Source: Novosphingobium jiangmenense (lineage in GTDB: Bacteria > Pseudomonadota > Alphaproteobacteria > Sphingomonadales > Sphingomonadaceae). Taken from it: 64,000 nucleotides of DNA. The translations under genes were made by a program, and so were the position numbers. Location: the NCBI RefSeq assembly GCF_015694345.1, contig NZ_JADQDC010000003.1, positions 124,001-188,000 on the forward strand, in the 5' to 3' direction. The notes under the pieces are model-generated. The model had not been told where the DNA came from. It did no database searches and saw only the letters and a list, made by a program, of their open reading frames with translations. Positions 41,739 to 42,067 of the stretch are shown here, in pieces (the stretch's first letter is position 1; every line of letters begins with the position of its first letter).

Positions 41739-41781
41739 CCTCAGGATTGAAATTTGCAGGCAATGCTGCTATCTGATCCGG

Positions 41782-41811
41782 ACCAAACGACATTGGCTGA
41801 TGCCATTGGAT
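41782..41811. repeat. duplicated ~30-bp element, copy 1
   Basis: ACCAAACGACATTGGCT plus CCATTGGAT with a 4-base spacer. Copy 2 at 41980-42010 is identical in both blocks with a 5-base spacer. On the minus strand each copy contains the sequence around an ATG-TCG-TTT-GGT start. This copy leads into a frame that runs antisense into the methyltransferase gene end. Confidence 0.85.
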
Positions 41812-41847
41812 AAACCCCCATCGTTGCAGCGGTGGGGGTTTCTTTTT
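41812..41847 (+). terminator. intrinsic terminator after the methyltransferase gene
   Basis: AAACCCCCA (41812-41820) pairs with TGGGGGTTT (41833-41841), followed by CTTTTT. It abuts repeat copy 1. Confidence 0.88.
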
Positions 41848-41861
41848 GGACCTGTCCGTTC

Positions 41862-41887
41862 GGGGGACGCGTTGCAGCGCATCCCCC
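41862..41887 (-). terminator. hairpin downstream of the 32-codon frame
   Basis: Read on the minus strand, GGGGGATGCG pairs with CGCGTCCCCC through a 6-base loop, with one U-G pair. On the plus strand the same position is a C-A mismatch, which favours a minus-strand RNA. It begins 5 bases after the small frame's stop; no U-run follows. Confidence 0.5.
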
Positions 41888-41892
41888 TCCCG

Positions 41893-41991
41893 TCAGCCTC
41901 GCTTGCGGCCTGCCACTTCGACCACCTTCAGGATGAGGGTGGCAAAAGCGAACATGGCCCCAAGGAAGAGGCAAAGGTCACCAAACGACAT
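41893..41991 (-). CDS. candidate 32-residue single-pass membrane peptide
   Basis: ATG at 41991 with GGAGAG about 9-14 bases upstream, stop at 41895-41893. The peptide starts MSFGDLCLFLGAMFAF, continues as one hydrophobic helix and ends with the basic tail AGRKRG. This looks like small membrane-active peptides of type I toxin-antitoxin loci or other small membrane regulators. I do not recognise a named family. Its start region is the duplicated 30-bp element (copy 2), and a hairpin follows the stop. Coding status is inferred from the start signal, composition and flanking structure, not from homology. Confidence 0.5.
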   Translation of the reverse strand: MSFGDLCLFLGAMFAFATLILKVVEVAGRKRG

Positions 41992-42010
41992 TGGCTTCTC
42001 TCCATTGGAT
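41980..42010. repeat. duplicated ~30-bp element, copy 2
   Basis: Same two blocks as copy 1 (17 and 9 identical bases). On the minus strand it supplies the Shine-Dalgarno-like GGAGAG and the ATG of the 32-codon frame. Confidence 0.85.
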
Positions 42011-42067
42011 CACGGCAAGATTGCCGCGGAACCGTTAGAGCAGTTTCATAACGAGTTTACGAGATGG

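Follow-up and report, generated by a model that had tools for sequence, protein, structure and literature searches.

The 64-kb window analysed here (64,000 nucleotides of Novosphingobium jiangmenense contig NZ_JADQDC010000003.1, positions 124,001 to 188,000 of the forward strand) contains, upstream of folB, a locus that very probably represents a type I toxin-antitoxin (TA)-like module, judged by an architecture from which expression and toxicity are extrapolated. In the mechanism that we propose, the minus strand would encode a short mRNA consisting of a 5′ hairpin, a Shine-Dalgarno (SD) sequence, the coding region of a single-helix membrane peptide and a 3′ hairpin (hairpin A). The plus strand would give rise to an antisense RNA of ∼67 nt that runs towards this mRNA, has its own σ70-type promoter and ends in a second hairpin (hairpin B). 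The apical loop of this small RNA (sRNA), UUGCAG, would kiss loop A of the mRNA, CUGCAA, after which the 5′ arm of the sRNA would zip onto the ribosome-binding site and start codon over 17 + 9 bp and block translation. Once the sRNA disappears or is transcribed less, as when the replicon is lost, the peptide would be synthesised and would act on the membrane. Comparison across related loci supports the anatomy of the module, the complementarity of the two predicted RNAs, the locus-specific matching of both contact sites and the strand assignment of the two hairpins; the expression of both RNAs, the kissing step, the translational block and the toxicity are what we infer from this anatomy.

A first-pass annotation of the region had described a 17-base and a 9-base block, both occurring twice at a distance of 198 bp, and we located both pairs. 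The 17-nt direct repeat is exact (41782-41798 and 41980-41996), and no third copy exists in the window with up to three mismatches. In 2000 dinucleotide shuffles of the intergenic sequence, the longest direct repeat measured 15 nt and none reached 17 nt. The 9-nt block reads CCATTGGAT on the plus strand (41803-41811 and 42002-42010). Since the two copies are direct repeats on one strand, copy 1, read on the opposite strand, is antisense to copy 2. The resulting target site spans the start codon and the first two SD bases, and the predicted sRNA/mRNA duplex of -44.5 kcal/mol is interrupted by gaps of 4 nt on the sRNA and 5 nt on the mRNA, the latter lying between the 17- and 9-nt blocks. The earlier description of a 32-codon minus-strand frame preceded by GGAGAG also holds, as does that of a hairpin that pairs fully only as minus-strand RNA: its G-U pair becomes a mismatch on the plus strand. 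It had overlooked a plus-strand promoter and terminator at copy 1 and a second hairpin (41812-41841), whose loop is the exact complement of loop A. This terminator comprises 13 pairs and the tail CTTTTT. The locus would thereby supply a small RNA that can pair with the mRNA of the toxin, as is characteristic of type I systems.

The following statistics are based on 92 loci, nearly all of them sphingomonad, of which 73 were obtained by a scan of named genomes and 19 from other sources. Two hairpins are present in 91 of them, L076 having only a single one. Clustering by 11-mers gave 61 representatives, and the 57 with matching loops were used for pairing and promoter tests. Not included in the 92 are L005 (on the same contig as L124), L024 and L147 (second hairpin or copy absent), L033-L058 and L132-L193.

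When read on the toxin strand, hairpins A and B carry the same hexamer in their loops in 86 of the 91 two-hairpin loci and, at the level of representatives, in 57 of 61, compared with a mean of 6.2 and a maximum of 15 in 10000 permutations. These 57 representatives display 16 distinct hexamers, and close relatives change both loops jointly (TAGCAG in L104, CTGCAA in L115, TTGCCG in L116 and TAGCCG in L122). The identical loops are embedded in stems A and B that differ from each other. Using a strand-neutral finder, we counted wobbles in 55 of the 61 representatives. In the toxin-strand reading, stem A contains 58 G-U and 4 A-C oppositions, whereas stem B contains 1 G-U and 50 A-C; a folding-based count in 57 loci gave 61/2 for A and 2/50 for B. 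An A-C opposition on one strand corresponds to a G-U pair on the other, indicating that A is selected as a toxin-strand RNA and B as an RNA of the opposite strand. In this comparison, the opposite wobble signatures are the strongest evidence for two convergent RNAs. They accord with the remark in the first-pass annotation that the hairpin behind the frame is fully paired only in minus-strand RNA.

The second predicted contact site is likewise matched locus by locus. Among the 57 representatives, the 49-nt start region forms a predicted duplex with its own copy of on average -40.5 kcal/mol, versus -23.0 kcal/mol with copies from other loci and -20.2 kcal/mol with its own copy shuffled; the lowest of 10000 permuted means was -26.3 kcal/mol. 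The own sRNA is the best partner for 40 of 57 mRNAs and among the top three for 50. We also considered nine mRNAs from genomes with several modules: five of the seven matches in G049 (two broken ones were omitted), two of three in G182 and both in G052. For all nine, the cognate sRNA scored best, twice by only 1.3-1.4 kcal/mol. It is on these loop, wobble and duplex results that the case for the TA-like module rests.

The peptide reaches a mean hydropathy of 2.37 at its 19-residue Kyte-Doolittle maximum. The first-pass annotation had named conservation of the frame in relatives as a check, and the frame passed it: in 33 disjoint pairs of branch-I open reading frames from relatives, the ratio of nonsynonymous to synonymous changes (pN/pS) is 0.23, and the peptide is under purifying selection. 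A short hydrophobic peptide gene maintained as a protein is again typical of type I modules. No convincing match to the peptide family was found in Pfam, NCBIfam, PADLOC, PHROGs or PDB; the best library matches were PADLOC PDC-S15, reached by one of 20 members at E 0.0069, and Pfam DUF4244, reached by a single member at E 0.023 and short of the cutoff of that model. Upstream of the start codon, a stem of some kind is found in 55 of 57 representatives, an uncontrolled count in which about a dozen picks are other stems by eye.

A scan of the window for the E. coli σ70 consensus did not report the sRNA promoter, because it demands a T at the last –10 position, and the site emerged through comparison with relatives. 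On the opposite strand upstream of the copy, TTGA is present in 52 of 57 representatives, and 51 of them combine it with agreement at 7 or more of the 12 consensus positions, compared with a mean of 9.9 and a maximum of 17 in 50 mononucleotide shuffles. This promoter-like site is the best within ∼115 nt. A logo aligned on TTGA reads TTGAA-N17-CTATnT, and two of its columns owe nothing to the way the sites were chosen: the A in fifth place (0.81) and the T two bases past TAT (0.73). By this comparison, the sRNA promoter is recurrent. An Rfam scan of the window at the gathering threshold found only a tRNA and no antitoxin RNA family. The coordinates of all features are listed in Table 1.

Table 1. 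Features of the putative TA-like module in the window
Feature	Position	Strand	Comparative basis
32-amino-acid hydrophobic peptide open reading frame (MSFGDLCLFLGAMFAFATLILKVVEVAGRKRG), putative type I toxin	41893..41991	minus	homologues, pN/pS
SD sequence GGAGAG	41998..42003	minus	
5′ leader hairpin CGCGGCA-ATCT-TGCCGTG	42011..42028	minus	
Target site on the mRNA, made up of repeat copy 2 (41996-41980, 17 nt) and ATCCAATGG (42010-42002)	41980..42010	minus	
Toxin mRNA hairpin A with the loop CUGCAA (41877-41872)	41862..41887	minus	
sRNA promoter TTGAAA-17-TATCTG	41747..41775	plus	similar sites in relatives
Predicted antitoxin sRNA, ∼67 nt, 5′ and 3′ ends as predicted	41781..41847	plus	
Pairing arm of the sRNA (17 and 9 nt around a gap of 4 nt), complementary to toxin ribosome-binding site and start	41782..41811	plus	
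Hairpin B + CTTTTT, predicted intrinsic terminator, loop UUGCAG (41824-41829)	41812..41847	plus	

A protein search found homologues of the peptide in the family of the window, the Sphingomonadaceae. A family profile (A2) built from 20 rows matched, by inspection of the rows, 13 of 397 family genomes at E below 1e-5, including G147, which is unconfirmed by motif, and 29 of 397 at E ≤ 0.1. Within the genus, the peptide was found in 8 of 99 genomes (E ≤ 0.001). The search of the order gave 14 of 296 genomes (E ≤ 0.001), all belonging to the same family, and that of the class only the genome of the window itself (1 of 385, E ≤ 0.01). Almost all of the 73 loci from named genomes are labelled Novosphingobium, Sphingomonas or Sphingobium, and a few bear other labels such as “Alphaproteobacteria,” “Proteobacteria” or “Microvirga.” Weaker protein-search matches (L011-L016, L018-L021 and L025) were dropped, as they sit in open frames of 128-488 amino acids. 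The module is carried by three plasmids; a fourth plasmid match, in Phyllobacterium, had an E value of 7 and was discarded. The single genome G049 holds seven profile matches.

In the window, the module lies between a 23S-methyltransferase-like frame, whose matches stay well below the curated cutoffs, and a downstream frame that passes the FolB-domain cutoff. We viewed this junction in the 14 best-scoring of 93 genomes with a FolB match: five contain the module, eight have an empty site of 39-75 nt and L165 has ∼195 nt of other sequence. In G990, whose FolB is 98% identical, the junction measures ∼54 nt versus ∼404 nt in the window. By this comparison, the module is a discrete cassette of ∼350 bp that is gained or lost as a unit.

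Several observations weigh against the proposed module. Four of the 61 representatives lack matching loops according to the script: hairpin A is shortened in L063, L072 and L090 show a register offset by eye, and L026 lacks hairpin B. The TTGA and TA columns of the promoter logo are high because sites were chosen for them, and a search of 43 loci ahead of the leader hairpin found no conserved toxin promoter. A U-tract (at least five T in 12 nt) follows hairpin A in only one of 57 representatives and hairpin B, on its own strand, in only 21. After hairpin A, 40 of 57 carry [AG]AACG; in the sRNA this becomes CGUU[U/C], which gives hairpin B a short U-tract. With no U-tract at A and a modest one at B, transcript ends are uncertain outside the sRNA of the window itself. 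Transitions between start region and copy preserve a G-U pair more often than not (71 vs 29, binomial p 3e-5). Transversions are skewed as well (38 A>C vs 12 C>A, 25 G>T vs 10 T>G, 20 G>C vs 6 C>G), so we give this bias little weight: base composition or an SD constraint contributes to it. Finally, L008 lacks cognate pairing of start region and copy (-17.5 kcal/mol, with 43 other copies pairing better), and no recognisable antitoxin copy was found in L142 (the same locus as L026) or L147. Decayed-looking modules were noticed by eye: L142 without hairpin B or copy, L144 without a recognisable start and L147 without a copy.

The peptide could also be a non-toxic small membrane protein under antisense control, such as one regulating a membrane complex, or a stress peptide, without any role in addiction. 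In its favour, small membrane proteins can be regulatory, and by eye many chromosomal copies seem to occupy recurring sites. The patchy distribution, the empty sites, the plasmid copies, the seven matches in one genome and the locus-specific pairing suit an addiction-type module better, and we therefore regard a non-toxic peptide as rather unlikely.

Far less probable is the view of the first-pass annotation that the repeats are the starts of tandem paralogous reading frames, copy 1 being a decayed toxin gene. Copy 1 does contain ATG-TCG-TTT-GGT on the minus strand, and the frame of 73 amino acids that it opens lacks, as had been noted, a hydrophobic helix. Three observations contradict a paralogue: relatives carry an opposite-strand promoter-like site after the second copy, the copies are matched locus by locus despite sequence differences between loci, and the wobbles of hairpin B are valid on the opposite strand only. 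We instead assign copy 1 to the pairing arm of the predicted plus-strand antitoxin RNA. The suggestion of a type I TA-like locus has thus gained comparative support for its RNA and peptide anatomy and lost its reading of copy 1, and toxicity is presumed now as it was then. Equally improbable are direct repeats left by a recent duplication or by gene conversion, with no selection for RNA pairing: gene conversion could likewise keep the copies of a locus alike, but it predicts neither the opposite wobble strands of A and B nor identical loops in different stems nor a recurrent antisense promoter.

Among known systems, the TA-like module is built like par_pAD1 (Fst/RNA II of Enterococcus, with Gram-positive homologues). 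Reviews describe for par_pAD1 convergent RNAs, direct repeats at the toxin start, a 5′ stem-loop of the toxin mRNA and a shared bidirectional terminator whose loops make the first contact (PMC7472228, PMC4147584). By these accounts, the module shares the opposite direction of mRNA and antitoxin RNA across direct repeats over the toxin start, a further contact through the loops of stem-loops, the 5′ mRNA stem-loop, the occurrence on both plasmids and chromosomes, and a peptide of ∼30 amino acids with a single helix and a charged C-terminus, as in Fst. Of the convergent promoters, the one on the antitoxin side was found, whereas the toxin-side promoter was not identified in the 43 loci. Unlike par_pAD1, the module lacks a shared terminator and has two separate hairpins with different stems, matched loops and opposite strand signatures, and among the order and class genomes searched it matches only in the family of the window. 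The peptides also differ from Fst/Ldr, as W occurs in 1 of 92 and P/D/S/TxxxG in 3 of 92, although this signature is soft, Fst of pAD1 itself having V for W according to the review (PMC7472228). No Fst/Ldr match to the module peptides was obtained with Pfam or NCBIfam, and by the libraries scanned the peptide is unrelated to that of par_pAD1.

In the enterobacterial systems ZorO/OrzO and ShoB/OhsC, a short sRNA is complementary to the toxin mRNA through a separate repeated stretch, the genes are divergent or adjacent, and pairing occurs in the 5′ untranslated region; the module differs from them in its convergent arrangement and its matched loops. Hol-Tox, TxpA and BsrG of Firmicutes are short hydrophobic helices with a basic tail, and their antitoxin anatomy differs from that of the module. 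The peptide bears a loose resemblance to this pattern, and ten members gave no Hol-Tox/TxpA match in Pfam at E up to 10. A 2025 paper names Proteobacteria, Firmicutes and Tenericutes as the only groups in which type I systems had been identified (PMC12390103). None of the literature matches listed concerns a sphingomonad or alphaproteobacterial type I system by its title or the opening of its abstract, which does not establish priority; in the passages probed, PMC13414033 mentions only an FnrS RNA in Sphingopyxis, and in PMC4642849 the relevant words are confined to the reference list.

A second branch of the family is marked by its start codons. The aligned peptide has no AUG start in G049, G182, G052, G273 and G175. 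In 9 of 10 tabulated loci (L140, L141, L143, L145, L146, L148-L150, L153 and L154), an in-frame ATA, ATT, ATC or ACG lies 8 nt past an SD of the AAAGGAGGTGA type, which comes close to complementing the anti-SD in full. This spacing was picked by inspection, and L017 of G273 shows the same arrangement. In L153, the script locked onto a neighbouring GGAGG; by eye, an ATA follows the other SD at 8 nt. In L146, an in-frame stop just before the SD restricts the alternatives, leaving GTG and ATA. This branch therefore seems to start at AUA, AUU, AUC or ACG, with the start codon assigned from SD spacing. We also noticed that L101, otherwise a member of the AUG type, has ATT at the start (locus position 1001), and that GTG or TTG occupies this position in L062, L063, L072, L107, L109, L111 and L129.

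The chances are about even that these loci constitute a previously undescribed TA family, characterised by a two-part RNA code for each locus (a pair of 6-nt loops, carried by a separate terminal hairpin on each RNA, plus the start-site arm), concerted changes, limited cross-talk and one non-AUG branch. Because the code shifts in concert between loci, several modules could share one cell with limited cross-talk. The loci offer dozens of natural matched RNA pairs for studying the co-evolution and specificity of loops and start arms. The apparent non-AUG branch would bear on the use of near-cognate start codons in bacteria, and such starts behind a strong SD would, if real, tie toxin dose to initiation fidelity. 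Sphingomonads are much used in biodegradation work, and annotation sees almost nothing of a family whose ∼30-amino-acid frames have no match in the scanned libraries.

Further observations concern the surroundings of individual copies. A search of a phage collection gave no match; L193, a putatively viral IMG/VR contig of 5.3 kb, is the single match among viral contigs and holds, by eye, the full module. Many Sphingomonas copies (L066-L131) adjoin in their downstream flank, by eye, the 3′ end of a gene whose C-terminus we take from a motif to be thiolase-like, and this flank suggests a second favoured chromosomal site. A further hairpin stretch of the same style, such as the GGGCCCCGAACGATTTGGGCCCC of L068 and L084, lies ∼145-190 nt beyond the stop codon in L068, L069 and L084 and is possibly what remains of a second module.
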